DNA of 64,000 nt from Phycisphaeraceae bacterium. GTDB lineage: Bacteria; Planctomycetota; Phycisphaerae; Phycisphaerales; SM1A02. Positions 12,427 through 43,306 of this stretch are shown in pieces. The first letter of the stretch is position 1. The number at the start of each line of letters is the position of its first letter. The notes beneath the pieces are model-generated. The model searched no databases. It saw only the letters and a list, made by a program, of their open reading frames with translations, and was not told the DNA's origin. Position numbers and translations under genes: made by a program. The DNA lies in assembly GCA_019636735.1 (NCBI GenBank), contig JAHBWY010000001.1, positions 124,001-188,000 on the forward strand, written 5' to 3'.

Positions 12427-12428
12427 CA

Positions 12429-23232: not shown

Positions 23233-23248
23233 AGAAGGACCTCGACGA

Positions 23249-24433: not shown

Positions 24434-24535
24434 CGGCGGTTGGACCCTGCGAAGCCTGTCGTTCGACCGTGCCGCGCCGCCGATCCATGGAAGCGACATG
24501 GCATGCCCACTATGCTCCCCCTCAGGAGACCCTGC

Positions 24536-25048: not shown

Positions 25049-25713
25049 ACCGGCGCGCGCCGAAGGCGCGCGGGGTGCGGGCGGTCGGAGAATCCGCCGC
25101 GCAGGTGGTCGGTCACAGGCTGGGCGTGACGCTCCTTGAGTTGATGGTGGTGCTCGGGCTGATCGTGGCGATCATGGCGCTCGCGGGTCCGTTGTTCATG
25201 CAGTCGATGCGCGATCGGGCGCTTCAGGATGCCGGAGAGCGGATGGTGGCGGGACTCGACGCCGCGCGCGCCCATGCGCAGCGCGAGGGCGTGGTGGTGG
25301 AGGTCATCGCGAGCGCCGGCGGTCGACGCATGGTGGCGACAGAGTGGTCCCCCGATGGTGGAGAGGCGCGTCCTGTCCCGGCGCTCTTCTTTGAGCTGCC
25401 GGCTCCGGTAAGCCTGATCGTGGAGCCCGGTGAAGAGACCCTGGTGATCTTCCTCCCCGATGGCTCTGCGCCCGCCGCGCGGCGCTGCGTGCTGCGGGGC
25501 GATGAGGCACTCGAGGCGTTGGTCACCATTTCGCCGATGCTTGGCCGAGCGTCGGTGACCATGCGGGCGCGGCGCGAGGATGGCGAAGCCGATCTTGAGG
25601 AAGATGATTCAGACGACCTCGTGGGCGAGGCTGATGGTGAGGTGCTCGCGCCGGAGTCGCAGTGGCGCATGGAAGGCCGAGCGCCCGAGCCGAAGGGGGT
25701 GGGTGTGCCATGA
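25045..25713 (+). CDS. gspH: Minor pseudopilin GspH-like
   Basis: 222 residues; ATG overlaps the gspG stop (ATGA). After a 27-residue basic lead comes a prepilin helix, G then VTLLELMVVLGLIVAIMALA with Glu5. A GspH-like beta region follows (LDAARAHAQREGVVVEVI, typical ARSEA-like motif of GspH/FimT), then an acidic stretch (EADLEEDDSDDLVGEADGE) near the end, absent from standard GspH. Minor pseudopilin of the tip complex. Name based on helix, domain and gene order. Confidence 0.8.
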   Translation: MNRRAPKARGVRAVGESAAQVVGHRLGVTLLELMVVLGLIVAIMALAGPLFMQSMRDRALQDAGERMVAGLDAARAHAQREGVVVEVIASAGGRRMVATEWSPDGGEARPVPALFFELPAPVSLIVEPGEETLVIFLPDGSAPAARRCVLRGDEALEALVTISPMLGRASVTMRARREDGEADLEEDDSDDLVGEADGEVLAPESQWRMEGRAPEPKGVGVP

Positions 25714-26168
25714 GCCGTCGAGGCGCCGTGCTTCTCGAGCTCCTGGTGGCGCTGGCCATCTTCGTCGTCGCTGCGACCACGCTGCTGGCGACCTTCGGTG
25801 ATGTGATTGCGTCGCTTGATCGCGGGGCCGTGCAGTCGCGGGCGGTGGACCTCGCGCGAACGCGCATGAGCGAGATCGAAGCGGGCCTTGTCGCCACCGA
25901 AGACCTGCGCTCCGAGGGGCGAAGTCGACCAGCGGCGGCGGGCGGTGGCTCGTCGCGCGATCGTGGCGAGGTGCGCGATCCCGATGGTCTCTTTGTCGAG
26001 ACGAGTGTGACCATGAGCGAGTTTCCGAACCTCTCGCTCGTTGAGATTCGCGTCTACGACGGCGTCCGGAGCGATGCCCGCTTCACGCTTCGGCAATTGG
26101 TCGAGCTGCCGCGTCAGCGGAGCGCGGCCGACCTGGGTGATGACTCCGAAGTGGAGCGTGCACCGTGA
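25710..26168 (+). CDS. gspI: Minor pseudopilin GspI-like
   Basis: 152 residues; ATG overlaps the gspH stop (ATGA). Short lead MSRRG, then AVLLELLVALAIFVVAATTL with Glu5; position 1 is Ala rather than Phe or Met. ARTRMSEIEAG resembles the conserved A-x-x-x-A-x-x-x-E segment of GspI, though a low-complexity Arg/Gly/Ser loop follows. Assigned from its place between H and J and helix features; together with J and K it should form the pseudopilus tip. Confidence 0.78.
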   Translation: MSRRGAVLLELLVALAIFVVAATTLLATFGDVIASLDRGAVQSRAVDLARTRMSEIEAGLVATEDLRSEGRSRPAAAGGGSSRDRGEVRDPDGLFVETSVTMSEFPNLSLVEIRVYDGVRSDARFTLRQLVELPRQRSAADLGDDSEVERAP

Positions 26169-26917
26169 GAGCGCCGGCGCGACGAGGCTTCACGCTGATC
26201 GAGGTGCTGGTCGCCCTCGGACTGGCGGCGGCGCTCCTCGGTTCGGTGATCGTCTTCGTCTCCAACCTGCGCGAGGCGCGAGGTCGCCTCGAAGAGCGGA
26301 CGATGCGGGAGCGAGCGGTCGATCACTTCTTCGATGCCCTCGAGGCGTCGATTCTCACGAGCATGCTCGACGCTGGCGATGGCGGCTTCGAAGGAAGCGA
26401 GGAGAGTTGCACCATCTTCACGGCGTCGGTGGATGCCGCGGCCACGCTTGAGCGGGGCGGTCGTCCCTTCATTCCCGCGTCGCGCTCATGGTTTGGCGTC
26501 GATCGTTCACGCGGAGCGCTCCTGGTGCGGCGAGGTGATTCAGCGCCCGAGGCGCTGCCCGCCGGCATCGACGCACTGCAATTCCGCTATCACGATGGCC
26601 GTGAGTGGGTGAGCGCGTTCGATGCGCGGACGCAGGGCCGACTGCCAACGGCGATCGAAGTGAGCGTCTGGCTTGCCGCCGCAGCTCCAGCCGGCGAGGT
26701 CGCTCGCCCGGCCGAGGAACGCGATGGCGAAGGCGGTGGCGCCGACTCCCGCGGCGGCGCTGCCACACGCGGCTCTGCTGATGAGCGCGCTCGCAGCGCC
26801 GGGCTCTTCGAACCACCGGAAGCTCCCGAGGCGCCGCCGGATCGGCGCCGCGTCATCGTGATTCCCGATTCGGCACCTGCGGAACTCCTTCCTGCAACCG
26901 TGGAGCGCACGCCGTGA
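26165..26917 (+). CDS. gspJ: Minor pseudopilin GspJ-like
   Basis: 250 residues; GTG overlaps the gspI stop (GTGA). Prepilin signal RAPARRG before FTLIEVLVALGLAAALLGSV, with Glu5. The body shows GspJ-like elements: RERAVDHFFDALEASI, a beta region with ALLVRRGDSAPEALPAGIDA, and LQFRYHDGREWVSAFDA, followed by a family-typical strand ATAIEV-like segment (LPTAIEVSVWL). A Pro/Glu/Ala-rich tail of about 70 residues extends beyond the usual domain. Confidence 0.8.
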   Translation: MRAPARRGFTLIEVLVALGLAAALLGSVIVFVSNLREARGRLEERTMRERAVDHFFDALEASILTSMLDAGDGGFEGSEESCTIFTASVDAAATLERGGRPFIPASRSWFGVDRSRGALLVRRGDSAPEALPAGIDALQFRYHDGREWVSAFDARTQGRLPTAIEVSVWLAAAAPAGEVARPAEERDGEGGGADSRGGAATRGSADERARSAGLFEPPEAPEAPPDRRRVIVIPDSAPAELLPATVERTP

Positions 26918-28944
26918 ACGGGTCTCGCACGCGGAAGGGCTTCGTACTGCTGGCCGTGCTCGCGCTCGTCGGTACGGCCATGGCCTTGACGGCCTCGGTG
27001 ACCTGGAGCGCCGTTGCGGAACATGCGGGGCGCTCCGCGGCGGTCGAAGCGGTTCGCCAGCGCGCGGTGGCATGGAGCGGCGCTCAAGCCGTGACAGCGC
27101 TCCTCGGTGAGCAGCGTCGAGTGGTCCTTCAAGGAGGTGAGCCGACACTGCCGCCGCAGTTGGTGCTCTTCGACGATGGCTCGCGCACAGCCGTCCTTCG
27201 CTTTCTCGACGCCTCCGAAGATGGCCGCACGCTTGTTTCTGAGGCTTCTCATCTCGACGCGAACTCCGCCGCGAGTGACGCTCTCCTGCTCGCGGGGTTT
27301 GATCCTTTCGATGCAGACGCCATTGTCGAAGCGCGGCAGCGCTCGCCCGGTGGGCGCCTCGCCTCGCTTGAAGACATTGTGCGCCTCTCTGGCATGGACG
27401 AAGCGCACTTGCGAGGCCGCGACGCCTTCGGCCCCGAAGCGATGGCCCTCGTGCGCGGGGTCCGAGGTGGCGAACAGGGGCGAGCGCTTGCGCGGGCGGG
27501 GGAGGCCCTTCGTGATGCAGGCCGTGCACTTGAGAACGCCGGCTCCGCGTTGCGCCCGGCGCCCGGATCGAACGAGGCCGACGCATCGGCCGGTGATCGG
27601 GCGGCTCGAGCACGGATTGAAGGAGCGAGCGGCCCCGCGCTCGCTGATCGACTGACGGTGTACGCCGTGGAGCCCGCGCTCTCGCGAAGCGGCACGCGGC
27701 GTTTGGAGCTCTCGGCGGCGTGGACGGAGTCATTGCGGGAGGTTCTTGGCGACGCGGTCGATGAGACGATGGCGCAGCGCATCGAAGCGCTCGCGGCGCG
27801 GAATCAACGACCTGCGGATGACGCCGCTCTGCTCGGATCGCTTCAGGAATTGGGCGTCAGACCTGAGTCATGGGCGGACATTCTCGATCGCCTCACGGTT
27901 GAGCGCGGTCTTTGGCGTTGGGGCAAGCTCGATCTCAATCGAGCGCCCGCCGCGGTGCTTGCGGCGCTCCCCGGTCTCTCGGCTGAACAGGCGGCGCGGA
28001 TCGAGCGCGAGCGGGATGGTCTCGATCCCGACGAGCGTGGCACACCCTTCTGGCTCCTCTCGCGCGGCATCGTCGACCCCGCGGAGATGCGGGCGCTCTA
28101 TCCGCGCGTCACCACGCGAAGCTTCTTCTGGCGCATGCGTTTCGTGACCGGGTACACCTCGTCCACCGATCCCGATGGTCCCATGCATGGCGTTTCGATT
28201 CTCGAGTGCGTGGTCGATCTCACGGCACCGCGAGCTCGATTGGCGGCGATGCGGGACCTGACACTTGCGCCGATGGCGCTGCGGCTGATCGAGGCGCGGG
28301 AACGACTCGGTGTCGACGATGACGCGCAGGATGATGGCCGTGGCGCTGCGCTCGCCCGTGCCGGTGAACGACTCGCTCGCGCGGGCGAAGGTGCCGCAGA
28401 AGTCGAGCGACTAACTGCGGCGCCAGCCGATCCGGAGCGGATCGCTGCTCTTCCGGTTGAAACACCCGCCGCGGGCGCGACGGGTGAAGGTGCTGAAGGA
28501 GCCCGCGCACCGCAGGCGGGTGCCGCTGCGCGGCCGGGCGGTGGCGCTGCCGCGCGCCGCCCGCCGGGGCGCGGAGAAGGTCGAGCCGGGCGCGGCGATG
28601 GTGCGGGCGCTCGCGCCGGTGGTGCTCCCGGCCCGGTTGAGGGGCGTGCGGGTCAGCGACGCCGTCCGCAGGGAGGCGCTGCGCCTGCGGGTGGCGCCGC
28701 GGCCCCGAGCGCTGCCGCCGGTCAGGACGCTGCCGCCGCAGGTCGTCCCGCGCGCGGGCGCGGCGGCGCTGCCGCCGCGACGCCTGTGAGTCCTGCGTTG
28801 CCACCACCCTTCGGTCGCTTCCGCCCGCGCCAAGCAGGTGCGACCTCGCCTGCCGGCGCCGGTTCCAATGGAGGCGCCTCGGAGGCGAGACCCTCGGGCA
28901 TCATGGACGACCTCTTCAGACCCAGGGATGATGATTGGCAATGA
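26914..28944 (+). CDS. gspK: Minor pseudopilin GspK-like with long low-complexity tail
   Basis: 676 residues; GTG overlaps the gspJ stop (GTGA). Signal TRKG before FVLLAVLALVGTAMALTASV lacks Glu5, as GspK proteins do. SAM-like helical domains are seen in GRLASLEDIVRLSGMDEAHL and the helix-hairpin-helix-like KLDLNRAPAAVLAALPGLS, both characteristic of GspK. The last 170 or so residues are Ala/Gly/Arg/Pro low complexity and end with a short acidic cap (FRPRDDDWQ). GspK caps the pseudopilus tip. The tail is unusual and probably disordered. Confidence 0.85.
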   Translation: MNGSRTRKGFVLLAVLALVGTAMALTASVTWSAVAEHAGRSAAVEAVRQRAVAWSGAQAVTALLGEQRRVVLQGGEPTLPPQLVLFDDGSRTAVLRFLDASEDGRTLVSEASHLDANSAASDALLLAGFDPFDADAIVEARQRSPGGRLASLEDIVRLSGMDEAHLRGRDAFGPEAMALVRGVRGGEQGRALARAGEALRDAGRALENAGSALRPAPGSNEADASAGDRAARARIEGASGPALADRLTVYAVEPALSRSGTRRLELSAAWTESLREVLGDAVDETMAQRIEALAARNQRPADDAALLGSLQELGVRPESWADILDRLTVERGLWRWGKLDLNRAPAAVLAALPGLSAEQAARIERERDGLDPDERGTPFWLLSRGIVDPAEMRALYPRVTTRSFFWRMRFVTGYTSSTDPDGPMHGVSILECVVDLTAPRARLAAMRDLTLAPMALRLIEARERLGVDDDAQDDGRGAALARAGERLARAGEGAAEVERLTAAPADPERIAALPVETPAAGATGEGAEGARAPQAGAAARPGGGAAARRPPGRGEGRAGRGDGAGARAGGAPGPVEGRAGQRRRPQGGAAPAGGAAAPSAAAGQDAAAAGRPARGRGGAAAATPVSPALPPPFGRFRPRQAGATSPAGAGSNGGASEARPSGIMDDLFRPRDDDWQ

Positions 28945-30590
28945 GCACGCCGCGACGAACCTTCTCCGGAGGCTCCCGCATGCGACTGGTCATCGACATG
29001 GGCCAGCGCCTCCTGCATGCCGTGCAGGGTGAGGTCCGTCGCGGTCGCGTGATCATCCGTCGCGCCGTCACCGTGGAAACGCCCGAGGATCTCGACACGA
29101 CGGATCCGAAGGCGACCGGAGCGTGGCTGGCCGAGACGCTTCGCGGCGCCGGGATTCGTTCGACGCGGGCGATCTTCGTCGTCAGTCGCGATGTCGCCAG
29201 CCACAAGCGCCTCATCCTGCCGACCACGCACGCGGAAGATCTGCCGGACATGACGCGCCTTGCGATGCAGCGCGAACTCGGACCGGCGGCCGAAGGCACG
29301 ATCATCGACTTCATTCCCGGCGGGCGCGAGGACGCGGGCACCGTCGTCCAGGCGTTCGCGGTCCCGCAGCGCGAGATCGACGCCATTCGCGCACTCGCGG
29401 AGCACGCGAAGATCGCGATCAGTCGGATCGCGCTCCGCACCTTCGGTTCGGCGCTCCTGCTCGAGACGCTTGATCGCTCCTTCGACTCAAGCGCCATGCA
29501 GCTCGCGCTTGACCTCACTGGCGAAGGATTGGATCTCTGCTTCCTCTCCGGAAACGAGCTCAGGCACAGTCGTGGCGCCGAAGTGCGCTATCAGCGTGAC
29601 CCCGGCGCCGCCGCAGACGCCGCGCTCACCGAAGTGCGCCGAAGCTGGGCCGCATGGCGATTGGCGCAGCCATCATCAGAGATCGCGCGAGGGCTCATTC
29701 TCGGCGAGCCCGAGATGGCGCGTCGCGTGGCCGACGGGGTGCGTGACTTGATCGGCAACGCCACGATTCTCGATTCGCATCCGCTCATTGGGGGCAAGGC
29801 CGACGCGGTGGGAGCGCTCGAAGCCTGCTGGCCGCTCGCGGGCGTGCTTCTCGAAGAGGGGATGGTCCGTCCCCGCATCGATCTCGCGTCGCCGCGCCGG
29901 GCGCCGGACCTTGCAGCCCGCCGTCGCATGGCGATCTACGCATCGGTCGGCTCTGTCGTGCTGGCTGCGCTCATCGGCTGGACGATCGGCGCTCGCGAAC
30001 TTCGAGCGCTCTCCTCTCGCGCGGCGGATCTGCAAGCCAAGGCTGAGAGCGCCCGCCCCGAGTCGCATCGCTTCACCCGCGACTTCTTCCGTGCGCAGCA
30101 CCTGGCGGCATGGGAGGACACCACGCCGCGCTGGCTCGACGCGATCGTCGATGTCGGCGGCTTCGCTCCCGACCCATCGCGTGTCGTCTTCGATCTCTTC
30201 GCGGGCACGCTTGAGACGGGCTCGCCGCGCGTCGTGAAGGAAACGGGGCGTGAGACCAGGATCTCCCTCAGGCGCCCGATGCGCATTCTTCTCGAAGGTG
30301 AAGCCAGTGAGCGCACCGCAGTCGATTCGCTGCGCGAGGCGTTTGTGAAGGATCAGCGCTTCTCGCTCGACTCGCCGGGCACGGACAAGCAGGGCGGCCG
30401 TCGCCTCGCGATGCCATTCACCTTCATCTTGCGACCGGGTGGCACCAACGCCGCCAATCCCGCGGGTGCGTCCGGCACTCCGGCGACTGCGCCGCCATCG
30501 GGCACCCCGGCTGGCGCGGAGTCGGGAGAGTCCGCAACGACCACGAAGCATGAGGCACCGAAGGCCGTTCGACTGGGAGGTGCCGCGTGA
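28941..30590 (+). CDS. gspL: GspL-like inner-membrane assembly protein with actin-like cytoplasmic domain
   Basis: 549 residues; ATG overlaps the gspK stop (ATGA). N-terminal 310 residues have the PilM/GspL actin-like fold: MRLVIDMGQRLLHAVQGEV, VVSRDVASHKRLILPTTHAE, MQLALDLTGEGLDLCFLSG. One transmembrane helix lies near residues 333-352 (IYASVGSVVLAALIGWTIGA), then a periplasmic region of about 190 residues with a ferredoxin-like PilN flavour and a Pro/Ala/Gly tail. GspL links the cytoplasmic ATPase to GspM. Name from fold and position; sequence divergence is high. Confidence 0.75.
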   Translation: MSTPRRTFSGGSRMRLVIDMGQRLLHAVQGEVRRGRVIIRRAVTVETPEDLDTTDPKATGAWLAETLRGAGIRSTRAIFVVSRDVASHKRLILPTTHAEDLPDMTRLAMQRELGPAAEGTIIDFIPGGREDAGTVVQAFAVPQREIDAIRALAEHAKIAISRIALRTFGSALLLETLDRSFDSSAMQLALDLTGEGLDLCFLSGNELRHSRGAEVRYQRDPGAAADAALTEVRRSWAAWRLAQPSSEIARGLILGEPEMARRVADGVRDLIGNATILDSHPLIGGKADAVGALEACWPLAGVLLEEGMVRPRIDLASPRRAPDLAARRRMAIYASVGSVVLAALIGWTIGARELRALSSRAADLQAKAESARPESHRFTRDFFRAQHLAAWEDTTPRWLDAIVDVGGFAPDPSRVVFDLFAGTLETGSPRVVKETGRETRISLRRPMRILLEGEASERTAVDSLREAFVKDQRFSLDSPGTDKQGGRRLAMPFTFILRPGGTNAANPAGASGTPATAPPSGTPAGAESGESATTTKHEAPKAVRLGGAA

Positions 30591-31546
30591 GACGCTCCCT
30601 CATCATCGGTGCCGTCGTCGCAGGCTCGCTCGTCGCGGGTGCGCTTGGGTACATGGGTGCGTCGGGGCGCCTCTCGAACGCGCGAACACAGGAGCTCGAG
30701 CGCATCGGAAGGTTCATCGACTTCCTTGAGCGTGTGCGCGCCGAGCGCCAGGCGCGCCCCGCAGTCGATGCGAGGATCAAGAGCGTCGCCAATCGCACGC
30801 TTGGACCCAACGCCGAAACGGTCGACAGCGGCTTGCGAAGTCGCCTCAATCGAATCGGTGAAGAGCTTCAACTCACCGATCTTCAGGTCGCGACCGAAGC
30901 GGAGAAGGAGCGCATCCTCTCTCCGGCGCGGAGTGAGATGACGCGACTCGATCGCACCCTTCGCGAGCAACCGGACTGGGTCGAAGTGCGCGGCGTGATC
31001 TCGGGCGAAGGGTCGCTTGATCAGGCGATGCGTCTCATTCATCGACTCGAGGTCGAACCGTGGATCAAGCGGCTCGATCAGGTGCGCCTCGATCCCGGTC
31101 GAACGGGCGAGCGGGTGCGGGTGGTGGTTCGACTCACCACGCTCTTTCTTGAAGGCGTCATCGGGCAGCCCGTTCCGCCCCCCTCGGCGGAGGCGATGTC
31201 GACCTACGCGCGCTACCAGCCATTCGTGCAGCGGAATCCCTTCCGACTTCCGCCGCCGCCGCCAGCGCCGCAACCCGCAGTCGTGCAGAAGCCGGCGCCG
31301 CGGCCGCCGGGGTTTCCATGGAACCAGTGGAAGGTGACAGGGCGCCTCGATGGCCCCCTCGGCGTTGAGGCATGTCTCCGCAATGTCGCCACCAATGCAA
31401 CGCTCACGCTTGCGCCGGGCACGCGAATCTCCGACGCTGAATTCATCGGCTTCGAGATCGATGCCGCGCTCTTCAAGATGGCCGATGCCCTGTTCCTGGT
31501 GGAACTTGGAGCCACCATGGATCAGCGCCGCGACTTTTCTCCTTGA
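30587..31546 (+). CDS. GspM/PilO-like protein fused to a GspC/PilP-like homology region
   Basis: 319 residues; GTG overlaps the gspL stop (GTGA). A membrane anchor (LIIGAVVAGSLVAGALGYMG) is followed by a coiled-coil (TQELERIGRFIDFLERV) and a GspM/PilO-like ferredoxin domain (VRGVISGEGSLDQAMRLIHR, VRVVVRLTTLFLEG). After QRNPFRLPPPPPAPQP the last 80 residues (WNQWKVTGRLDGPLG ... VATNATLTLAPGTRISDAEF) resemble the HR domain of GspC or PilP, the part that contacts the secretin N0 domain. Canonical systems encode GspM and GspC separately. Domain reading is from motif shape, not a database search. Confidence 0.65.
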   Translation: MRRSLIIGAVVAGSLVAGALGYMGASGRLSNARTQELERIGRFIDFLERVRAERQARPAVDARIKSVANRTLGPNAETVDSGLRSRLNRIGEELQLTDLQVATEAEKERILSPARSEMTRLDRTLREQPDWVEVRGVISGEGSLDQAMRLIHRLEVEPWIKRLDQVRLDPGRTGERVRVVVRLTTLFLEGVIGQPVPPPSAEAMSTYARYQPFVQRNPFRLPPPPPAPQPAVVQKPAPRPPGFPWNQWKVTGRLDGPLGVEACLRNVATNATLTLAPGTRISDAEFIGFEIDAALFKMADALFLVELGATMDQRRDFSP

Positions 31547-31658: not shown

Positions 31659-34600
31659 ATGCTGCTACGGCACTTCGACTGGATCGCTCCGGCGTTGACG
31701 GCGTGCCTTGGCGCCGCAGCGCTCGGGCAGGAGGCCCCGGACACGGCGAAGGACGCGCCATCGGCGACCCCGGCGGTCGCGTCGTCGCTGCCCCTCTCGC
31801 TCCCTGATGATCCGACCCCCGATCCGGCGCCATCGTCCGAGGACGCCACGCCGCCCGGGCCAACCGCGCCACAGGCGCCGAGCGCCGATGCTGCACCCGC
31901 CGCCGCGCCCGAGGCGCCAGCCGCGCCGACCACCATTCGCTTCGCCTTCAAGGATCAGCAGTGGGACCAGGTGCTCGATTGGTTCAGCCGAACGACGCGC
32001 ATGCCCGTGGTGCGCGAGACCCCCGCGCCCGCGAGCACCGTCGATTTCATCTCTGACCGGGCCTATGAACTGCCCGAAGCGTTGCAGGTCCTGAACACGC
32101 TCCTCCAGACGCAGGGCGTGATGCTGCGCCGCGAGCGGGACACCCTCTTCCTTCAGAAGCTCGATGACATGAAGCGGGAGAACATCCCGACCTTCGTTGA
32201 TCGACTTCCCGAGGAAATCACGGACGACCAGATCGTGACCCTCCTGCTGCCGTTGCGCAACGCGACGAGCACGGCGGTGGCCGAGGCGCTGCGCAATCTG
32301 GTGGCGAGCTATGGCAGCGTCACCGATCTGGCGCAGAGCAACTCGGTGGTGCTGGTGGAGACAGCGGCCAACCTGCGCCGCCTTCAGACGATCATCGCGG
32401 AGATCGACAAGGCCGATGTCGAGAACATCGTCGAGTACATTCCGCTCCGGTACGCGAAGGCTGAGTCGATGCTGCGAAGCCTGACCGGGCTCATGGCCGA
32501 ACGCCAGGTGCAGTTCGTCATTCAGCCCGACGGCAAGCGAGTCAGGGTGAGCGAGGACAAGATCGTGGGGCTCTCGCTCACGGCGGACCCGCGCACGAAT
32601 GCGATCATCGGCCGAGGGACGCGGGCTCGTCTGGACCAGTTGCGCGAGACGATCGCCCTGCTCGATGTCCCCATGCAGGATGAGACTCGCACCCTCCGCA
32701 CGATCGCCCTGGGTCGGCTGAATCCGCAGGAAGCGCGCGGCGCGATCGACGCCTTTCTCCAGTCGATGGCGCCCGAGCGCCGGCCGACCATCATCATGTT
32801 GCCGGAGCGCTCCGGAGTGGCTCTGGTCGGCGAGGCTGGCGCCCTCGATGAGGTCAGCGCGTTCATGCGCGAGGCGGCGGGCTCCGGGCCGGAGGGTCCC
32901 TCGCGTTCGCTGCGCACTTTCACCCTGGTCAACACGACGACGACCGCGATGATCCCCGCGCTGCGGGCGATGCTCACCGACGCGCAGATGCGCACGCTGC
33001 GGCTCGCTCAGGGGGCCGACGATCGCTCGCTGCTCGCCTTGGGCGACACCGATGCGGTCGAGACCGTTGTGGAGCTGGTCGAGGCGCTCGATCAACCCGC
33101 CCGGCGCGATGCGCGCGTGCGGGTCATCCCCATCGCCAACGCCGATGCCGCGCGTGTGGCCGAGCGCGCTCGCGAGCTCTTCCTGCGCGGCGAGGGCGCC
33201 GCAAGCGCCGAGGGCGCAGCGCCGGCGCTCCCGTCGCCGACCGTTGAGGTCGATACCGAGGGAAGTGCGATCATCGTGGCAGGGCGCGAAGACGCGGTCG
33301 ACGCCTTCGAGCGCATGATCAACCAGGCGCGAACCCTGACGCCGCCCGAGCGCAGTGGTCGCCTCGTCGTGGTGCGAGAGCGACGAGCGGAGGATCTCAT
33401 CGATCCGCTTCGGCAGGCCCTCGCGACCGTGGCGCCAAAGCAGGGCGGGCGCGTGCCCGAGCCGGTGACGATCGAAACGATCGCATCGGCGAATGCACTC
33501 TGGGTGACGGGTGAGCCCCAGCAACTGGCGCTCGCTGAGCTTGTCGCACGCGAGCTCGATCGCACCGACCGCAGCACCCGGCAGGTTCGCACCTATCAAC
33601 CGAAGCACCTCGATCCCGCGGCGCTCGTGCAAGGCGCCCAGCGCCTCGTCGCTGCGACGCGCAATGAAGGCCCCGGCGCCCCGGAGTTCCAGGTGGATCC
33701 GCGGGGCACCTCGGTGCTGGTCATCGCCGATCACGCGGAGATGGAAGGCGCGATGGCGGCGCTGCACACCTGCGACGAAGGCGCCGCGACCGCATCGGAG
33801 ACGATCGTGCGGGTCTATCCGCTGACGCAGGCCGACTCGAACGATGTGGCGGCAGCACTTCAGCGGGCGCTCGATGGCCGCGGTCCCGTGCGCCCCGGCG
33901 CGCCGCGACCCGTGGTGGCCGCGGAACGCAGCAGCAATTCGATCGTGGTCACGATGTCGCCCGACGACCTCGAGACGATCGAGGACCTCATCAAGCCGCT
34001 CGACACCGGCGTTGCCAAGGAAAGTGCACAGGTGCGCACGGTGGTTCTGCGACACGCGCGGGCCGAGCAACTCGCGCCGCTCGTGGAGCGATTGCTCGCG
34101 GAGCAGAACCTGGTGAATCCGGCGGATCTGCCGAGCTGGGCGCGATCGGAGTTCATTCGCAATCGCCTCGCAGGGAGTGGGCGCACGCCGGTCCGTGTCG
34201 CGGCGGATCAGCGCCTCAATGCGATCATCGTCACTGCGCCACGCGCGGTGCTCACGGTGGCGGAGCAGCTCATCGAGCAGCTCGACGCCGCTGGCGCCGA
34301 ACAGCACGCGCGCAGCGTGCGGGTGCTCGAGATCCGCAACGCCGACGCGGGGGAGATTGCCGGCGCGCTCGAGCAGGTCTTCCAGGGGGACGGCTCGGCT
34401 GAGGCGCCGCCGGTCATTCGGGTCAACACCGCCAGCAATTCGCTTCTCGTGCGGGCGAGCGATGAGCAGTTCTCCGTCATCGAGCGAGTGAGTCGCGCGC
34501 TCGACAAGGGTTCCATCGTGACCTCCCGGCAGATGCGCACACTGGCCATCGACCCCTCGCGGGCGAATGCCGAAGAGGTCGCGCGCGTGCTTGGCCGCAT

Positions 34601-37600
34601 GGCATCTTCGGGGGCCGATGGTGCCGAGGCGATCAAGGTCGTCCGTCTCGAAGACCTCATGCGCGAGTACGGGGTGGCACCCGCGGGTGCCTCGGCTCCT
34701 GCGACCACGACCGCGCCGGCGAACAAGATGCCCGCAGCTCCGGTGGCGCCCGGAGCCCTGCGCGACGACGCCGCTGCCGACGCACCCGCGAGCGCGGCTG
34801 CCGGCGATGCGACGGAGCCGCCCCCGACCATCGCGGTCGATCCGGCGACGAACGCGATCGTCCTGATTGGCGGACGCCGCTGGGTCGATCGCATGTCGCA
34901 GCTTGCCATGCAGATCGCGGAACAGCTTCCAGCTCCCTCGACCGAGGTGCGCGTCATCCAGGTGCCTGAGGGCGTCGATGTGAATCGCCTTCGCATGCTG
35001 CTCACCGAGGCGATGCGCGTGGTGACGCCGCCGGGTGGGCGTCCGGGCGACCTTTCGCGGCGAGTGAGCCTGCTCGCCGATGCGCCGAGCCGTGCGCTGG
35101 TGGTGGCCGCGACCGACACCGACTTCAGGCAGATTGCGCCGATCCTCGCGGCCATCTCTCGCACGAGCGGAACAGAGCCGGTGCTGGTGCGCTCGCTTGA
35201 GCCTCGCTTCGTCACAGCGGGGCAGGCGGTCGACACGATCCGCCAGATCATGGGCGCTCGGGCGCGAGCTTCGGCGGCCGCCGGTGGCGCACCCGGTCCG
35301 CAGGCGGAGTTCGCCATCGATCCGCGCGGTGACGGGATCTTTGCGATCGGCTCCGAGTCGGCGCTTGACGAAGTGCAGCGATTCCTTGAACTGGTCGATG
35401 CCGGCCCCCGCGCTGGCGAAACGCCGCTGCGCATCTTCGAGCTTGAGTATCTGCGCCCGCAGTCGGCGGCGCGTCTGGTGCGCGAGGTGGTCCTCGCGGG
35501 TGAGGCGGCCGAGGCTGCACGAACGACGCTGATTCCCGAGGAGGAGCTCGGCCTTCTACTGGTTCGGGCGCCGGAGGCAATCACGCAGCGCATCGACGCC
35601 GTCCTCCGCGAGATTGATCGGGCCTCGACCTCGGGGCTCGAACTCCGCACGCTCAAGCTCGAGCGAGCTGACGCGCAGTTGGTGGCCGAGGTGCTTCAGC
35701 GCTTCTTCGACGATCGCGCCCGTGTCACCGGTGCCGCGCGAGGCCGCCAATTGCCCCGCAGCGTGGCGATCGTCCCCGACCCCCGCAGCGGCACTCTCCT
35801 CATCTCCGCCAGCGACGCCGACTTCGCCGAGGTGACACGCGTCGCGAAGGAACTCGATGCGCCGATGGCGGCCAGCGATCTCCAGTTCCGCATCTTCCCG
35901 CTGCGCCACGCCGAGGCGAGCGAGGTGGTCGACCTCGTTCGCACCCTTGCGACCGAACTCACCGAGAGCGAGATGCCCTTCTTCTGGATGCGTCGCCAGA
36001 CGCCGCGGGCGAGCACGCGCGATGCCTTTGCCGTGCGCGCCGATGATCGGCTGAACGCACTCATCGTGACCGGGCGCGGCGATCGGTTCGCGCTGGTTGA
36101 GAACCTGCTGGCGGCGATCGACGCGCCGGTCGAGCAGGGGCAGGGGCGCCAGCTTCGCTTCTACCGAGTGAAGAACGCGGACATCTACATGGTGCTGCAG
36201 CTTGCGAACGATGCGCTCGGTCGAAGCGGCGCCGATCGACGATGGTGGGAAGGGGAGCGTGCCACGCGCGCCCGCATCGTCGCCGATCCGGGGACGAGCA
36301 CGCTCATCGTCAGCGCCACCGAGGCGCAGCAGCGCGAGGTGGCGGCACTGATTCAGTCGATCGACGAGGCGGTCACGCGACCTCAGGTGGACATGGCGGT
36401 CATTGCCCTTGAGTTCGCACCCGCGCAGGACACCGCGCAGACGCTGCGACGGTTCCTCGCGGAACGGGCTGCCGGAGACCAGGCGGCCGTCCAAGCGACG
36501 GCGATCGTGCCGAGCGTCAGCGCCAACACCCTGCTCGTCTCGGCTCCGACCGAGGTGCTGGCGACCATCCGGGACCTCGTCGCCAAGATCGATCAGCCGA
36601 GCGCCAGCGCCGATCGAACGATCGAAATCATCAAGCTGAAGAAGGGACTCGCGAGCGACATCACGCGCATCGTGCAGGAGCAGTTCACGCGGCGCGGCGG
36701 CGCTGCGCAGGGCGTCATTGTGACCTCCGATGCCCGCACGAACTCGATCATCGTGAACGCGCCGGAGCAGCTCTTCGAGCAGGTGAAGGCGCTCATCACC
36801 CGACTCGATACGCCGACCGATGCGGATGAGTCGGTGATTCGCACCTTCGCACTGACCGGGGCGAAGGCCGATGAAGCAGTGCGCATTCTCTCGCAGACTC
36901 TCCAGCTCGACGCCCAGGGGCGCCCGCGCGGGGTCACGATCCGGCTTGATGATGAAGCGGCGCCGCCAGTTGAAGTCCGCGCGCGCATCGTTGCCGATCG
37001 TCGTTCAAACAGCCTCGTGGTGACCGCAACGCCGGAGAGCATTCCGGTCATCGAATCGCTCATCTCGAAGATCGACACCGTGCCCGCGCGGGCGTCGCTT
37101 GAGTACCGCGTGATTCCACTCACGCATGTGGCTGCGAGTGACCTGAGCTGGACACTCAGGCAGATGCTTCGCACGCGCGAGCCCGGTGAGACGGATATCC
37201 GCGTCGACTACGACAATCAGGAGAACCGCCTCATCGTCGGTGCGACACCGGAGCAGTTCCGCGAGGTCGAGCGCATCATCAATGAACTCGACCGTCCTTC
37301 CGAGCGCAGCCGAGTCACGGAGTTCGTTGCCCTGAAGCACGCCCAATCCGAGCAGGTGCGGCAGGCGCTCTCCTTCTTCTACGGACCCGGCGCAGTCGAC
37401 GCCGCAGGGCAGGCGCAGCGCAGCGTGATCATCGTGGCGGACCCGGCGAGCAACTCGCTGGTCATCTCCGCGGCGAAGGACGAGTGGGACGGCATCCGCA
37501 CGCTGCTTGAGAAGCTTGACAGCGCCGACTACGACGCGAGTCTCCAGCTCAGGGTGATCGCTCTGGCCCACGCCGATGCGCCGAGCGTCGCGGAGGCGAT

Positions 37601-40600
37601 CAACGGCGCCTTCCGCATCACCACCGAGGCTCGCCCCGATCGCGCCGCGCCGCGACGCGATGCTGACCGAGGCCGCGATGGTCAACGCCCGGAAGATGCG
37701 CCGCCGCCCGCCGTGCTGGTACCACCCGATCGCTGGGTGAGCGCCACGGCGGAGCCGAGGACCAACGCCATCATCATCTCCGCGAGCCGGCAGAACCTTG
37801 TGAAGATCGAGGCGATCATTGCGCAGATCGATGTGGCCGAGAGCAGCAAGCTGCCTCCGCCCCGGCTGATCCCGGTCGAGAGCGGCAGTCCCGAGCAGCT
37901 TGCGCAGGCGCTGCGCGAGATCTATGCGGACCGCACGGCTGGCCGCGGCGCTCCGCCCGGACGCGAAGGCGGTCGCGGTGTCCGAATCGTCGGCGATGTG
38001 TCGAGCGGTGTCATCATCGTGCGGGCGTCGGAGGAGGAGTTCGCCGCCATCCAGGCGCTCGCCGAAGCGCTTCAGCAGCAGGTTGATTCGCGCGGCCTCA
38101 CGGTGCGCGTGATGCGACTGGCCCAGGCGCCCGCGGTGCGGGTGGCCAATGCCGTGCGCGATGCGTTCACCACGCGAGCCCGCCAGTCGAACCTTCCGTT
38201 CAGCATTCAGGCCGACCCATCGAGCAACGCCGTGGTGGTGGCTGCGACCGGGGCGCTCTGGACGGAGATCGAGGCGACCGTGAAGGCGCTCGATCAGATG
38301 ACGCCTTCGGCGGGACAGCAGGTGCTCATCATCGACTTGAACAATGTGACGCCGGAGACCGTCGAGCGCGTCATTCGCACGCTCGGACTCGAGCGTGAGC
38401 AGGCGCCTGAGAGCGCGACACGACTGGTGAACGAACCGGTGCGGATCGCACCGGTGCCCGGCCGCAATGCGGTGATGGTCGTCGCCGGAGCGGGCGATCG
38501 CGAGACGGTCGTCGCGCTCGTCAAGGCGATCGACGAGGAGCCGAAGCTCGCCGAGATGCAGATGCAGGTGGTCAGGCTCCGCAACGCGAGCGCGCCAACC
38601 ATCGTGGCGACGCTTCTCCAGATGCTCTCCACGGGTCCCGGCGCAGCGGCGGGTCAGGCGCCGACGGTCTCGCCGCTTCTGCGCTCACTTCAGGAGCAGG
38701 TCCGCCGACTCACGCTGCGTCGCGACGGTGCTGATCAGCCGGACATCGCCTTCGACCTCGCTCAGCCGATCAAGCTCGTGGCCGATGAGCGCATGAACGC
38801 GATCGTCATCGGTTCGACGCCGTCCAATGTTGCGGCGCTGCGCGAGGCGGTGGCGCTGCTCGACAGCGTGCCGACGACCGACGGCGTTTCCGTGCGCATC
38901 TTCCCGCTTGAGAACATGGCTGCCGCACAGTTCGCCCGGCTGGTGCGCGAACTCTTCCAGCAGGGGCGCAACCTCGCCAATGTGCCCCTCTCCACGGCCA
39001 AGGCGATGCCGGGTGGTGAAGTGGGCAAGGCGCTCGTCGGGGAGATCGCGATCGCCGTCGATGAGCGGACGAACACCGTGGTCGTCGCCGGGCGCGACGA
39101 AGCGGTCGCCTTCGTCGAGGTCCTGCACCGACGCCTTGATTCCGATGCGGTGACCGGATGGGTTGAACCTCGCATCTTCCAGTTGCGGCACGCCGATGCC
39201 CGCGATCTGGCCACGACGCTTTCCGATGTGCTGGCCGAAGCGAACAGCACGGGTCGCGGCGGCCGCGGCGGTGGGGCCACGAGTGAGCTCAGTCCGCTTC
39301 AGCGCCAAGTGGCGCGGTTGCGCATGATCCGTCTCGACCCCAACGGCGCCGCGCGCCCGATCGACAGCGATCTCTTCGCACCGCTGACTCAACTTGTCGT
39401 GCGACCTGACCCCGGGATGAACGCGCTCATCTGCATCGGCACGCCGGCCAACCTCGACATCATCGGTGAACTCGTGAAGCTCCTCGATGTTGAAGCAGCC
39501 GGTCCGAGCGCACTCGTGCGCGTCTACCCGGTGCAGAACGCGTCGGCGGCGCGCCTGGCGAACACCATTCAGCAGCTCTTCGAAGCGCAGTTCCAGGCGA
39601 AGGCGATCCGTGACGACGACCGGTTGAAGGTCGTGCCCGATGAGCGAACCAATGCCCTGGTGGTCTCGACCAGCACGCGCAGTTTCGCGGTCTTCGAGCA
39701 GCTCCTCGGGCAACTCGATCAGAAGATCGCCCCCGAGATCCGCGAGATCCGCACCGTGGGTCTGCGCAGCGCGTCGGCAGTTCGGCTCGCGCCGATCATC
39801 CAGCAGGTGCTAGATGCGCGGCTTGAGCGCCTGCGGCGCGTGCAGCCCGAGACGGCGGAACTCGAGCGCGTCGTCATCGTGCCTGACAGTCGTTCCAATG
39901 CGCTCATCGTCTCCGCGGCTCAGGAGAGCTGGCAGGTCGTCGAGCGCCTCGTGGGCGAACTCGATCGCGACCTCGACGCCGACCAGTCGGCGATGCATGT
40001 GCTCACCATCAAGAAGGCCAACCTCGATCGAGTCGCCTCGGCGATCAACGAGATCATGGATCGGCGCTACGCCGACCTTCCCAACGAGATGCGCCGCCGC
40101 GTGCGACCGCTGGTCCTGACGGATCCGCGCACGAGCAGCCTGCTCATTTCCGCCGCCCCCGGTGACTACACCGACATCGAGCGACTCGTCCAGCAGCTTG
40201 AGGCGACCCCGATGGATCCCGCGGTGTCGGTCGATGTCATCACGCTCGTCACCGCGCGAGCCGAGCAGCTCGCCCCGCGCCTCCAGACGCTCATGCGCGA
40301 GCGCATGGCGACGCTGGGCGGCGCCGAAACGCCGTCCGATCGCGTGTCGATCGCCCCCGATCCCGCGAGCAACAGTCTCATCGTCGCCGCGAGCGAGGAG
40401 AACCTCGCCATCATTCGGCAACTGGTCGAGGCGCTCTCGAAGGCGGGCGAAGAGGCAGTCGAAGGACGCCAGGTGGAGCTGGTCCTCCTCTCGAAGAGCC
40501 GGGCGCAGGATCTGGTGCCCGTCCTCAACGACCTGTATGTCAATGAACAGAATCGGCGCCGCGGCGAGAACGCCGTGCGCGTCACAGCGGACCAGCGACT

Positions 40601-42572
40601 GAACGCCCTTCTCATCACCGGACTTGAGCCCGATGTCGCCGCCGTCAAGCGCATGGCGGGCGAACTCGATGGCACGCGCCCGGCGACGGTGGTCGAGATC
40701 AAGGCCCTTGCGCTGGCGAGCGCGAATGTCGTCGAGACGGTCAATCTCATCGAGAATGTGCTGGCAGGCAACACCCTGGCGGGCGGTCGGCCCGGCCAGC
40801 AGGCGACAGTCGTCAAGTACATGCGGCAGATTCACGGCGACCCCGATGGCGCGCCCATGGAAACGGAAGTAAGCGCCGCCGTCCGGGCGAGCATTTCGCT
40901 GGTACCCGACATTCGCACGAACACCATCATCGTGCGCGCCCCGCGCGACGCGATGGAGCTCATCGAGCGCATGGTTCGGGACCTCGACCAGTCGAGCGCT
41001 GGCAGCCAGTCGATCAAGGTGCTCCGACTGGCCAACGCCGACGCCACGCAGATGGGGCGCCTGCTGACCGAGCTCTTCAATCTCAGGCAGCAGGGCAATC
41101 TCTTCGTGCTGAAGCCGCGCGAGGGAGTGCCCGGCGCCCCACTCGAGCCGATCATCGACCCCGCGTTCGGCGGCGATGCGCTCTTCGGAAGCGACTTGAC
41201 GATGGTGCCCGATCCTCGCCAGGCGCTCTCGATCACCGTTGACACACGCACCAACAGCCTGCTGGTGAGCGGCACGCCAACCTACCTCGAGCTCGTCGAC
41301 AAGGTCGTGCGCGAGCTCGATGGCCAGACGGCGAACGAGCGCGAGACGAAGATCTTCGCCCTCAAGAATGCGGCCGCCGACAATGTCGCTCGAATCGTCT
41401 CGGAGTTTGTCGACACCGATCAGCGCAAGGTGATCGCCACCCTCGGGACCGGCCAGATCGGGTCGGCGAGCCGTCTGCTCGAGCGCGAGGTCACGATCGT
41501 CGGTGACACGAAGACGAACGCCGTACTTGTCACCGCCAGCCCGCGCTATCTCGAGACGCTGACGCAGGTGATCCATGAACTCGATGTCGATCCGCCGCAG
41601 GTGCTCATCCAGGTGGTTCTCGCCGAGGTCACCTTGGGCAACTCCGAGGACCTCGGTCTCGAGTTCACTCGCTTCCAGGTGGGAAGCGTCAATGTTGCCG
41701 GTGGATTCGGGTTGCCGCGCAGTCCCTTCGCCTCGGGCATCAGCATCCCGGGACTGGCCGGGCTCGCTCCCGCGGTCTTCGGAAGCGCCGGTCTGCCCAA
41801 CATCGCCATCGGGTCTTCGCAGTTCGATCTTCTACTGAACGCGCTCAAGAGCCAGAATCGCGTGCAACTGCTCTCCAATCCCAGTGTCATGGTGGCGAAC
41901 AACACGCGAGGCTTCATCCAGGTCGGTGAAACGGTGCGCCTGCCGAACTCGGTGTCCTTCAGCGCGGCCGGCCAGCAGTCCAGCGTCGATCCCGAGGACA
42001 TCGGTGTGATCCTCAATGTCACGCCTTCGATCAATCCTGACGGCTTTGTCCGCCTCGAAATCGAGCCGGAGATCTCCTTCCTTTCGAAGGAGACGACACA
42101 GATCAGCGAGAACTTCGAGTCACCGGTCATCACCCGTCGACGAGCCAACACGACCGTCACCGTCAAGGATGGTCAGACCGTCGTGATCGGCGGCCTCATC
42201 CAGGATCGCTTCGAGCGGATCGACAAGAAGATTCCCTTCCTGGGCGACATCCCGATCGTCGGCTTCCTCTTCAGCAACAAGAGCGAGCAAGTTCAGAAGA
42301 CGGAACTGCTGATTGTCCTTACGCCGCATGTCGTGCGCTCTCCGGAGTCCGCCCGCGAGCGATCGCAGGGCATGCTCGAGAAGCTCTCGCTTCCGCCGTC
42401 GCTCAAGCGGCAGATCGAGGTCGGCGAGCTCCAGGGTCTGCACGGCGCCGTCGACGATCAGGGTCGCCTGATCGATCCGATCGGGGCACCGTCCGCGACG
42501 AAAGTGCAGGACATTGGCGGTCCGCAGGTTCCGGCAACTCAGGGGAGTAACGGCGGGGGGGGCTCTCGTTGA
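31659..42572 (+). CDS. gspD: Giant type II secretion secretin GspD with about 37 N-domain repeats
   Basis: 3,637 residues in one uninterrupted frame, about five times a normal GspD (roughly 650-750). ATG 31659 follows GGAG and starts a signal peptide (MLLRHFDWIAPALTACLGAA). Residues 24-90 are Pro/Ala-rich. N0 spans about 91-170 (TTIRFAFKDQQWDQVLDWFS, ELPEALQVLNTLLQTQGVML). From about 171 to 3310 there are about 37 tandem N1-like modules averaging 85 residues, each with a first strand (RVIPLRHADA-like), two helices, and a closing D-x-R-x-N-x-hydrophobic-V-x-A strand plus helix ending in -LD. The secretin domain (about 3311-3600) has the usual signatures: PPQVLIQVVLAEVTLGNSED, VQLLSNPSVMVANNTRG, VGETVRLP, TVKDGQTVVIGGLIQD, IPFLGDIPIVGFLFSN and ELLIVLTPHVV. 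A short Gly-rich tail lacks an obvious S domain. It forms the outer-membrane channel; the array would make an exceptionally long periplasmic vestibule. Confidence 0.93.
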   Translation: MLLRHFDWIAPALTACLGAAALGQEAPDTAKDAPSATPAVASSLPLSLPDDPTPDPAPSSEDATPPGPTAPQAPSADAAPAAAPEAPAAPTTIRFAFKDQQWDQVLDWFSRTTRMPVVRETPAPASTVDFISDRAYELPEALQVLNTLLQTQGVMLRRERDTLFLQKLDDMKRENIPTFVDRLPEEITDDQIVTLLLPLRNATSTAVAEALRNLVASYGSVTDLAQSNSVVLVETAANLRRLQTIIAEIDKADVENIVEYIPLRYAKAESMLRSLTGLMAERQVQFVIQPDGKRVRVSEDKIVGLSLTADPRTNAIIGRGTRARLDQLRETIALLDVPMQDETRTLRTIALGRLNPQEARGAIDAFLQSMAPERRPTIIMLPERSGVALVGEAGALDEVSAFMREAAGSGPEGPSRSLRTFTLVNTTTTAMIPALRAMLTDAQMRTLRLAQGADDRSLLALGDTDAVETVVELVEALDQPARRDARVRVIPIANADAARVAERARELFLRGEGAASAEGAAPALPSPTVEVDTEGSAIIVAGREDAVDAFERMINQARTLTPPERSGRLVVVRERRAEDLIDPLRQALATVAPKQGGRVPEPVTIETIASANALWVTGEPQQLALAELVARELDRTDRSTRQVRTYQPKHLDPAALVQGAQRLVAATRNEGPGAPEFQVDPRGTSVLVIADHAEMEGAMAALHTCDEGAATASETIVRVYPLTQADSNDVAAALQRALDGRGPVRPGAPRPVVAAERSSNSIVVTMSPDDLETIEDLIKPLDTGVAKESAQVRTVVLRHARAEQLAPLVERLLAEQNLVNPADLPSWARSEFIRNRLAGSGRTPVRVAADQRLNAIIVTAPRAVLTVAEQLIEQLDAAGAEQHARSVRVLEIRNADAGEIAGALEQVFQGDGSAEAPPVIRVNTASNSLLVRASDEQFSVIERVSRALDKGSIVTSRQMRTLAIDPSRANAEEVARVLGRMASSGADGAEAIKVVRLEDLMREYGVAPAGASAPATTTAPANKMPAAPVAPGALRDDAAADAPASAAAGDATEPPPTIAVDPATNAIVLIGGRRWVDRMSQLAMQIAEQLPAPSTEVRVIQVPEGVDVNRLRMLLTEAMRVVTPPGGRPGDLSRRVSLLADAPSRALVVAATDTDFRQIAPILAAISRTSGTEPVLVRSLEPRFVTAGQAVDTIRQIMGARARASAAAGGAPGPQAEFAIDPRGDGIFAIGSESALDEVQRFLELVDAGPRAGETPLRIFELEYLRPQSAARLVREVVLAGEAAEAARTTLIPEEELGLLLVRAPEAITQRIDAVLREIDRASTSGLELRTLKLERADAQLVAEVLQRFFDDRARVTGAARGRQLPRSVAIVPDPRSGTLLISASDADFAEVTRVAKELDAPMAASDLQFRIFPLRHAEASEVVDLVRTLATELTESEMPFFWMRRQTPRASTRDAFAVRADDRLNALIVTGRGDRFALVENLLAAIDAPVEQGQGRQLRFYRVKNADIYMVLQLANDALGRSGADRRWWEGERATRARIVADPGTSTLIVSATEAQQREVAALIQSIDEAVTRPQVDMAVIALEFAPAQDTAQTLRRFLAERAAGDQAAVQATAIVPSVSANTLLVSAPTEVLATIRDLVAKIDQPSASADRTIEIIKLKKGLASDITRIVQEQFTRRGGAAQGVIVTSDARTNSIIVNAPEQLFEQVKALITRLDTPTDADESVIRTFALTGAKADEAVRILSQTLQLDAQGRPRGVTIRLDDEAAPPVEVRARIVADRRSNSLVVTATPESIPVIESLISKIDTVPARASLEYRVIPLTHVAASDLSWTLRQMLRTREPGETDIRVDYDNQENRLIVGATPEQFREVERIINELDRPSERSRVTEFVALKHAQSEQVRQALSFFYGPGAVDAAGQAQRSVIIVADPASNSLVISAAKDEWDGIRTLLEKLDSADYDASLQLRVIALAHADAPSVAEAINGAFRITTEARPDRAAPRRDADRGRDGQRPEDAPPPAVLVPPDRWVSATAEPRTNAIIISASRQNLVKIEAIIAQIDVAESSKLPPPRLIPVESGSPEQLAQALREIYADRTAGRGAPPGREGGRGVRIVGDVSSGVIIVRASEEEFAAIQALAEALQQQVDSRGLTVRVMRLAQAPAVRVANAVRDAFTTRARQSNLPFSIQADPSSNAVVVAATGALWTEIEATVKALDQMTPSAGQQVLIIDLNNVTPETVERVIRTLGLEREQAPESATRLVNEPVRIAPVPGRNAVMVVAGAGDRETVVALVKAIDEEPKLAEMQMQVVRLRNASAPTIVATLLQMLSTGPGAAAGQAPTVSPLLRSLQEQVRRLTLRRDGADQPDIAFDLAQPIKLVADERMNAIVIGSTPSNVAALREAVALLDSVPTTDGVSVRIFPLENMAAAQFARLVRELFQQGRNLANVPLSTAKAMPGGEVGKALVGEIAIAVDERTNTVVVAGRDEAVAFVEVLHRRLDSDAVTGWVEPRIFQLRHADARDLATTLSDVLAEANSTGRGGRGGGATSELSPLQRQVARLRMIRLDPNGAARPIDSDLFAPLTQLVVRPDPGMNALICIGTPANLDIIGELVKLLDVEAAGPSALVRVYPVQNASAARLANTIQQLFEAQFQAKAIRDDDRLKVVPDERTNALVVSTSTRSFAVFEQLLGQLDQKIAPEIREIRTVGLRSASAVRLAPIIQQVLDARLERLRRVQPETAELERVVIVPDSRSNALIVSAAQESWQVVERLVGELDRDLDADQSAMHVLTIKKANLDRVASAINEIMDRRYADLPNEMRRRVRPLVLTDPRTSSLLISAAPGDYTDIERLVQQLEATPMDPAVSVDVITLVTARAEQLAPRLQTLMRERMATLGGAETPSDRVSIAPDPASNSLIVAASEENLAIIRQLVEALSKAGEEAVEGRQVELVLLSKSRAQDLVPVLNDLYVNEQNRRRGENAVRVTADQRLNALLITGLEPDVAAVKRMAGELDGTRPATVVEIKALALASANVVETVNLIENVLAGNTLAGGRPGQQATVVKYMRQIHGDPDGAPMETEVSAAVRASISLVPDIRTNTIIVRAPRDAMELIERMVRDLDQSSAGSQSIKVLRLANADATQMGRLLTELFNLRQQGNLFVLKPREGVPGAPLEPIIDPAFGGDALFGSDLTMVPDPRQALSITVDTRTNSLLVSGTPTYLELVDKVVRELDGQTANERETKIFALKNAAADNVARIVSEFVDTDQRKVIATLGTGQIGSASRLLEREVTIVGDTKTNAVLVTASPRYLETLTQVIHELDVDPPQVLIQVVLAEVTLGNSEDLGLEFTRFQVGSVNVAGGFGLPRSPFASGISIPGLAGLAPAVFGSAGLPNIAIGSSQFDLLLNALKSQNRVQLLSNPSVMVANNTRGFIQVGETVRLPNSVSFSAAGQQSSVDPEDIGVILNVTPSINPDGFVRLEIEPEISFLSKETTQISENFESPVITRRRANTTVTVKDGQTVVIGGLIQDRFERIDKKIPFLGDIPIVGFLFSNKSEQVQKTELLIVLTPHVVRSPESARERSQGMLEKLSLPPSLKRQIEVGELQGLHGAVDDQGRLIDPIGAPSATKVQDIGGPQVPATQGSNGGGGSR
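32172..41588 (+). repeat. About 37 tandem secretin N-domain (N1-like) modules
   Basis: Protein-level repeat inside gspD. I counted 37 modules by the closing strand motif: for example DPRTNAIIG, DARTNSIIVNA, DRRSNSLVVTA, DPASNSLVISA, DERTNALVVST, DTRTNSLLVSG and DTKTNAVLVTA. Mean length is about 255 nt. Modules are well diverged at DNA level, so collapse or expansion by misassembly is unlikely. Longer inserts sit within modules near 34690-34820, 37640-37730, 38630-38750, 39240-39400 and 41090-41220. The count may be off by one or two because several early modules lack the Asn. Confidence 0.85.
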
Positions 42573-43306
42573 GTCGGTGTCGAGCGCAGCATCGTTCGCT
42601 GTCGCACCCGGCGTGCTGGTGCGGCACGACGCACGCGGGCGGAGCCACGAGTGCCCGAGTTGCAGCCTCGTCGCCACGATCGCATCGGCCTCGGACCGTT
42701 CGCGCCGCCCGGGCCGCTCGGAGTGCGTGTGTCGCGAGCGCTCTAGCTCTTGCCCTTCTTCATGTTGCCGGTTGTGTCGAGCGCACCTCCGGCGCGGATG
42801 GCCGAGCACCGGTTCCTCAGCCTGTCTCCGCGCCGACGACTCCGAGCGAGGCGCCCGCGAACGCGGTGGTGCTGATCGCTCGCCCCGCAGTGGACACCAA
42901 CGGCAATCTCTGGCGGGATCGCATCGACCTTACGGTCTATCTCTTCGCGCAGCCCTTCCCGACACCGGTGTTCCGTGAGGGCGAACTCGACTTCTTCATC
43001 TATCCGGTGGGTCAGGCTGGTTCGCCCGATGCTCCAGGCGTCCCGCTGCGGAAGTGGACCGTCGATCCGCAGACCATGGCCGCACTGCGCGGCATGTCAC
43101 TGCCAGGCCCGTGCTACAACCTTGGCCTGAGTCTTCTGGCCGATGGACGCACGGACGAGCTGCCGGTCGACGCCGTCGATCTCGCCGCCGTCTTTCGCGC
43201 GCCGGGACAGCCGCCCGTCTGGACGCAAGGCGTCACCACGGTGCAGCTTGGCATGGTGGTTCCGGAGAGTGGCCGTAGCTCCCGCCGCGGAACGGCCACT
43301 CAATAG
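42569..43306 (+). CDS. Lipoprotein coupled to the secretin gene
   Basis: 245 residues. The only usable start is TTG 42569, which overlaps the gspD stop as TTGA; an in-frame TAA lies at 42548. The lead is unusually long and Arg-rich (about 60 residues) before a hydrophobic segment and lipobox (ALALALLHVAGC). The mature part is beta-rich with VLIARPAVDTNGNLWRDRID, VYLFAQPFPTPVFREGELDF and VDPQTMAALRGMSLPG; no family recognised. Translational coupling to gspD and the lipid anchor make a secretin-assembly (pilotin-like) role worth testing; this is inference from position only. Confidence 0.7.
   Translation: MSRCRAQHRSLSHPACWCGTTHAGGATSARVAASSPRSHRPRTVRAARAARSACVASALALALLHVAGCVERTSGADGRAPVPQPVSAPTTPSEAPANAVVLIARPAVDTNGNLWRDRIDLTVYLFAQPFPTPVFREGELDFFIYPVGQAGSPDAPGVPLRKWTVDPQTMAALRGMSLPGPCYNLGLSLLADGRTDELPVDAVDLAAVFRAPGQPPVWTQGVTTVQLGMVVPESGRSSRRGTATQ

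Follow-up and report, generated by a model that had tools for sequence, protein, structure and literature searches.

The window (the whole analysed stretch of 64,000 nucleotides) contains a gsp gene cluster on the forward strand. The 5' end of its annotated gspF frame (23093-24433; TIGR02120, E=4.8e-93) is overlapped by clpB on the opposite strand. Then come gspG, encoding the major pseudopilin (24440-25048; TIGR01710 above the cut-off), and three genes for minor pseudopilins: gspH-like (25045-25713) and gspI/gspJ-like (26165-26917), both identified by family matches, and between them a gspI-like gene (25662-26168) with a prepilin-like N-terminus and homologues in relatives. The gspK-like gene (26914-28944) encodes an HHH_3 domain and has homologues upstream of giant secretin genes class-wide. 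The gene in the gspL position (28935-30590) has no family match and is assigned by conserved position, as is the gene in the gspM position (30587-31546), for which T2SSM matches in one orthologue only (E=0.089). The GspM-position protein was suspected, by eye, of carrying a GspC-like HR domain; this idea was rejected, as a profile search gave no PDB match and, in Pfam, nothing beyond weak T2SSM/PilN matches. No GspC was recognised in family searches. GspE-like ATPases are encoded elsewhere in the genome, none of them above the TIGR02533 cut-off. The order of gsp genes before the secretin gene is kept across the class Phycisphaerae, and it agrees with the original prediction, which placed gspD after gspF-M.

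The secretin gene itself is a giant gspD (31659-42572, forward strand). It is a stop-free frame of 3,637 aa (protein P0001) with an ATG start at 31659, an alternative TTG start at 31656 and a stop ending at 42572. The mass computed from the translation is 390.7 kDa, as expected from the earlier claim of a single intact frame and about 0.39 MDa per subunit. By sequence reading and hydropathy, P0001 begins with a signal-peptide-like N-terminus (MLLRHFDWIAPALTACLGAAALG followed by Q; 31659-31730); this is followed by a Pro/Ala-rich linker which reaches approximately 31928. Residues 91-170 (31929-32168) are N0-like. The N0 family PF21305 is recognised in 13 of 17 orthologues (best E=1e-4), the window copy alone scores below the cut-off (E=0.16), and a PDB search with this domain gave no match. 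The signal peptide originally claimed is thus retained as a signal-peptide-like start, and the claimed N0 domain as N0-like only.

Residues 194-3319 (32238-41615) comprise 37 contiguous N1-type, ring-building modules, which bears out the earlier count of about 37. Modules were counted with an HMM trained in this analysis on the giants; Pfam recognises 34 Secretin_N (PF03958) stretches (1009.9 bits, E=0), where the usual number is three. The C-terminal Secretin domain (PF00263) occupies residues 3395-3560 (41841-42338; E=8.7e-50). A lipoprotein gene (42569-43306, forward strand; lipobox Cys at 42773) overlaps the gspD stop. It has no family match, but it is conserved downstream of giants, with homologues after most of those in the window's order, and its product is a candidate pilotin.

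P0001 scores 1021 bits with the GspD model TIGR02517 (cut-off 351) and 402 bits with the PilQ model TIGR02515. The closest solved sequences to its profile are GspDs, with matches at 1e-48 to 1e-68 (PulD 1.4e-68, compared to approximately 1e-38 for PilQ). No AMIN domain was found in a Pfam search; together with the higher GspD score and the pseudopilin operon, this distinguishes the giant from PilQ-type secretins. By sequence criteria P0001 is a member of the GspD secretin family, as predicted, although the N0 call is weak. HMM searches of the translation, proposed as a check at the outset, matched both PF03958 and PF00263.

Tandem Repeats Finder reported no array in the giant gspD. Modules within P0001 are at most ~41% identical to one another; this is neither a young tandem repeat nor a collapsed assembly. 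Elsewhere in the window there are tandem repeats at 1647-2047 and 60392-60544, with 66/132-bp and 12/24-bp units, respectively, and a perfect 11-bp repeat, TGACCTCAACC, is present in 4.7 copies at 12377-12428.

Giant secretins form a class-wide family. The C-terminal profile matched in 244 of the 397 genomes sampled from the class (E<=1e-60), and at least 85 of the 397 contain single open frames of at least 3,000 aa; the search of Phycisphaerae genomes suggested with the original prediction therefore succeeded. These long giants have 3,000-6,169 aa and 31-63 modules, and the longest (6,169 aa, 63 modules) is found in G079. In a PF00263 search of 41 genomes (the window's own and 40 relatives), the best secretin matches in many of them fall on frames of 3,333-5,086 aa. 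Giants are present in the single-contig genomes G010 (4,856 aa) and G034 (4,634 aa), and in the further single-contig genomes G042, G074, G250, G285 and G316. Named relatives are nearly all metagenome genomes of Planctomycetota/Phycisphaerae; one is a closed chromosome, CP070772.1. In the phylum sample (392 genomes, matches at E<=1e-118), long secretins are confined to the window's order. Elsewhere in this sample, secretins of 1,277 and 1,413 aa (8-9 modules) occur in two genomes from other lineages.

Several individual genomes deserve mention. G042 and G074, of one genus and both single-contig, carry 38-module giants (L121 and L122) which are 93% identical. In G039 (PNC21), a 55-module array (L039/L111) lies in three overlapping frames of 2,199, 1,710 and 1,519 aa, due either to sequencing errors or to a real three-way split. 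Small genomes of family f1 (2.0-2.8 Mb, e.g. G002, G006, G008, G017, G018) have no match to the C-terminal profile at E<=1e-60, which suggests loss of the giant with genome reduction.

A tree of 59 secretin ends, in which deep branches are long and the root is unsure, separates the giants from the other secretins included from the same genomes. The window's giant is sister to L042, L043 and L044. One giant from the window's order (L025; G029, family f6) groups with f15/f16 arrays from outside the order; this suggests either horizontal transfer or misplaced taxonomy.

Within the window's order, the modules of different arrays are orthologous one to one and keep the same succession. The window and L031, from another family, have 37 modules each, with 33 reciprocal best matches (rho 1.00). 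Arrays from three genera (L021, L024 and L027) have 52 modules each, all collinear at ~50% identity, and four species of genus g25 have 50 modules each at 79-86% identity. Arrays of the order differ in length mainly within their N-terminal third. Outside the order, the last 10-15 modules are roughly collinear and the N-terminal parts differ. Array length is not strictly fixed, as sister clades have 37 and 43 modules. Between the LD at the end of one module and the beta1 of the next, the linker is 9 aa long (IQR 9-9) and takes 7-11 aa in the window's array; the alpha1-beta2 loops of that array, by contrast, span 6-72 aa. Constant linkers and variable internal loops would be expected if adjoining modules hold a fixed geometry. 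The dN/dS ratio is 0.08-0.20 over whole arrays and 0.04-0.28 in 300-codon windows, indicating purifying selection. Together, orthology, fixed linkers and dN/dS point to an old, constrained array in which each module has its own identity.

AlphaFold models five middle modules as beta-alpha-beta-beta-alpha units (pLDDT 75, pTM 0.46). Foldseek matched this model to the N-domains of GspD/XcpQ with E down to 1.7e-09, so the proposed check by structure prediction returned secretin N-domain folds. The second-best match was the Deinococcus radiodurans secretin DR_0774 (PDB 8co1, E=1.9e-09), which is identified by its PDB entry alone and is, in contrast to the giant, of ordinary size (a 740-residue chain). 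The C-terminal 703 residues also gave good module folds (pTM 0.38). With pTM values of 0.38 and 0.46, these monomer models do not predict the arrangement between modules.

Two adjacent genes share the array in three lineages: families f17 and f19 and the window's sister clade (L042-L044). Neither these two-gene versions, nor the inner joint which they reveal, nor the class-wide family was part of the original prediction. Gene 1 encodes a signal peptide and ~17-37 modules, with some gene 1 sequences cut by contig ends or gaps; an N0-like part is seen in f1 and f19 examples. Gene 2 likewise starts with a signal peptide and adds 12-24 modules together with the secretin domain. All 15 two-gene arrays examined are broken within a module, between alpha1 and beta2, such that beta1-alpha1 closes chain 1 and beta2-beta3-alpha2 opens chain 2. 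Scores of single half-modules are weak and the gene 1 half of L159 (and partly of L156) was assigned by eye; it is the consistency over the 15 pairs which constitutes the evidence. A break inside a module makes sense if both chains must meet in register. In L042-L044, both half-modules correspond to module 11 of the window (the hinge module, 34527-34961). The alpha1-beta2 loop of module 11 holds a Pro/Ala-rich insertion of 52 aa (34671-34826), the longest such loop of the array. The split sister clade lies among fused relatives in the tree, so that this split is probably derived. In the genus-mate G001, the contigs begin within the hinge region and stop short of the gate, and are thus uninformative on fusion there.

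Fused relatives have a long insertion at the hinge position. In seven fused f8 arrays it keeps three features ahead of the half-module, namely a GxRxDA motif, a stretch that is basic and hydrophobic, and A-x-(A/G)-Q. It resembles the signal peptides of separate second genes and retains a signal-peptidase-like site. An automatic scan for hydrophobicity at the hinge, which used a crude threshold and missed the true hinge in many arrays, gave p<0.05 in 16 of 95 arrays; a hydrophobic stretch is present there in several of the order's fused arrays but absent from the window's insertion (p=0.97). A hydrophobic hinge stretch in every fused array was therefore rejected as a generalisation, the f8 alignment alone being convincing. 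A single class-wide junction was likewise rejected: counted from the end of the array, the long insertion is 11-15 modules away in f8, f17, f19 and f22 and 21-28 modules away in the window's order, and homology of the two positions is not claimed.

Known GspDs have N0-N3 only, i.e. four N-domains in ~650-700 aa, compared to 37 modules in the giant, which is about five times the normal size, and up to 63 in its relatives. Both have the C-terminal secretin domain, N1-type modules and a gsp operon, and the start of the giant is, on a weak call, N0-like; the giant family differs from known GspDs in size and in its two-chain form. N-domains form superposed rings, the number of which depends on the machine (PMC10550240). 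PulD with HR domains protrudes ~20 nm (PMC6882859). The PilQ of Thermus thermophilus, a 757-residue protein of a type IV pilus/DNA uptake machine, has six stacked N-rings and a channel of ~35 nm, and is called unusual (PMC5745081, PMC4463427). As would be the case in the giant, extra N-rings lengthen its periplasmic channel; however, it has 6-10x fewer modules, and the parts of these two reports that were consulted describe no intra-module split. The original prediction knew of no described secretin of this size, and a literature search for named giant secretins likewise found none; subscription journals lay mostly outside this search and novelty is unproven.

The reading that best accounts for these observations, and which we hold to be somewhat better than an even bet, is that P0001 is the outer-membrane secretin of a type II secretion system with its 37 modules stacked as a ringed tube of ~100 nm, one module being jointed. 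Approximately 12-15 subunits would form the gate in the outer membrane, within the 12-16-fold symmetry of secretin rings, and every module would contribute one ring to the periplasmic part. N0 would dock on the inner-membrane platform, with a continuous tube linking it to the gate. Assuming 2.5-3.5 nm per ring, 37 rings would give a tube of ~90-130 nm, within which the pseudopilus and folded cargo could pass. The one fixed module would be a joint at which a break in the chain is tolerated, and in some lineages two separately exported polypeptides may complete one composite ring at this joint. Given the fixed linkers and the positional constraint, a long stacked sheath is the simplest reading. 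A stacked channel of ~100 nm is plausible, backed indirectly by the constant linkers, the positional orthology and the intra-module breaks. Against this reading count the low pTM of the models, the short secretins of the same genome, the unequal module numbers of sister clades, the failure to recognise a GspC and the location of the GspE candidates elsewhere in the genome.

Repeats in envelope proteins often serve as spacers. The array might accordingly be a flexible or folded tether, an alternative already raised in the original prediction: only the few gate-side modules would form rings, and the others would be beads on a string which anchor the secretin to the inner membrane or peptidoglycan. 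In its favour, N-modules can be dynamic in isolation (PMC10550240), AlphaFold gives no firm geometry between modules, and array length shifts by block deletions. However, the 9-aa linker is uniform over the array, unlike that of a loose tether, and modules retain position-specific sequences at family-level divergence. The two-gene forms would sever a tether unless the halves re-associate; intra-module breaks are hard to square with a mere tether, as they abolish the covalent link but leave the sequence of the module preserved as two parts. This alternative is disfavoured and considered unlikely. A dead or misassembled gene, i.e. a functionless repeat expansion or an assembly artefact, could be suspected because the genome is a 33-contig draft, but the same architecture recurs in many genomes, single-contig ones included. 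This recurrence and the ~41% maximum identity between modules refute both an artefact and a young tandem repeat. With dN/dS of 0.04-0.28 throughout, the suspicion is scarcely credible.

The fused giant could also be a precursor which is cut at the hinge insertion, giving a sleeve of N-modules only and a shorter secretin with 11-28 modules. The two-gene versions in f17, f19 and the window's sister clade fit this, as do the basic/hydrophobic stretch and A-x-A/G-Q site kept in the seven f8 arrays and the hydrophobic stretch at the hinge in several fused arrays of the order. In the window, however, the insertion is Pro/Ala-rich and without such a stretch, and few arrays are individually significant in the (crude) hydrophobicity scan; cleavage of this kind seems quite improbable. 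A related proposal is that of a bipartite tube of >100 nm, in which the gate with 11-28 rings and a lower sleeve are separate chains meeting in a composite ring, and in which fused precursors are cut at a conserved internal signal-peptidase site. This is put forward tentatively, as a possibility which probably does not hold in full.

The stacked-tube reading had originally been linked to a wide periplasm, to which such a channel would be suited. This part of the prediction is weakened. Next to the giant, the window's genome encodes secretins with 0-4 N-modules, among them proteins of 678, 784 and 1,043 aa which carry 1, 3 and 4, respectively. These short secretins must work in the same envelope, so a span of 100 nm is not required everywhere in it. 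Cryo-tomography of the planctomycete Planctopirus found the periplasm to be wide solely at invaginations (PMC5394234). Genome G000 (3.4 Mb) has eleven T2SSE-type ATPase matches and five secretins, and holds several type IV filament machines.

If the stacked-tube reading is true, this family of 31-63 rings would rank with the longest known protein channels and alter the view of the reach of a type II pseudopilus. The two-gene arrays are a natural split-protein experiment on in-register stacking of N-domains. Giant secretins also offer a tangible way into the envelope of the Phycisphaerae, which is poorly known.
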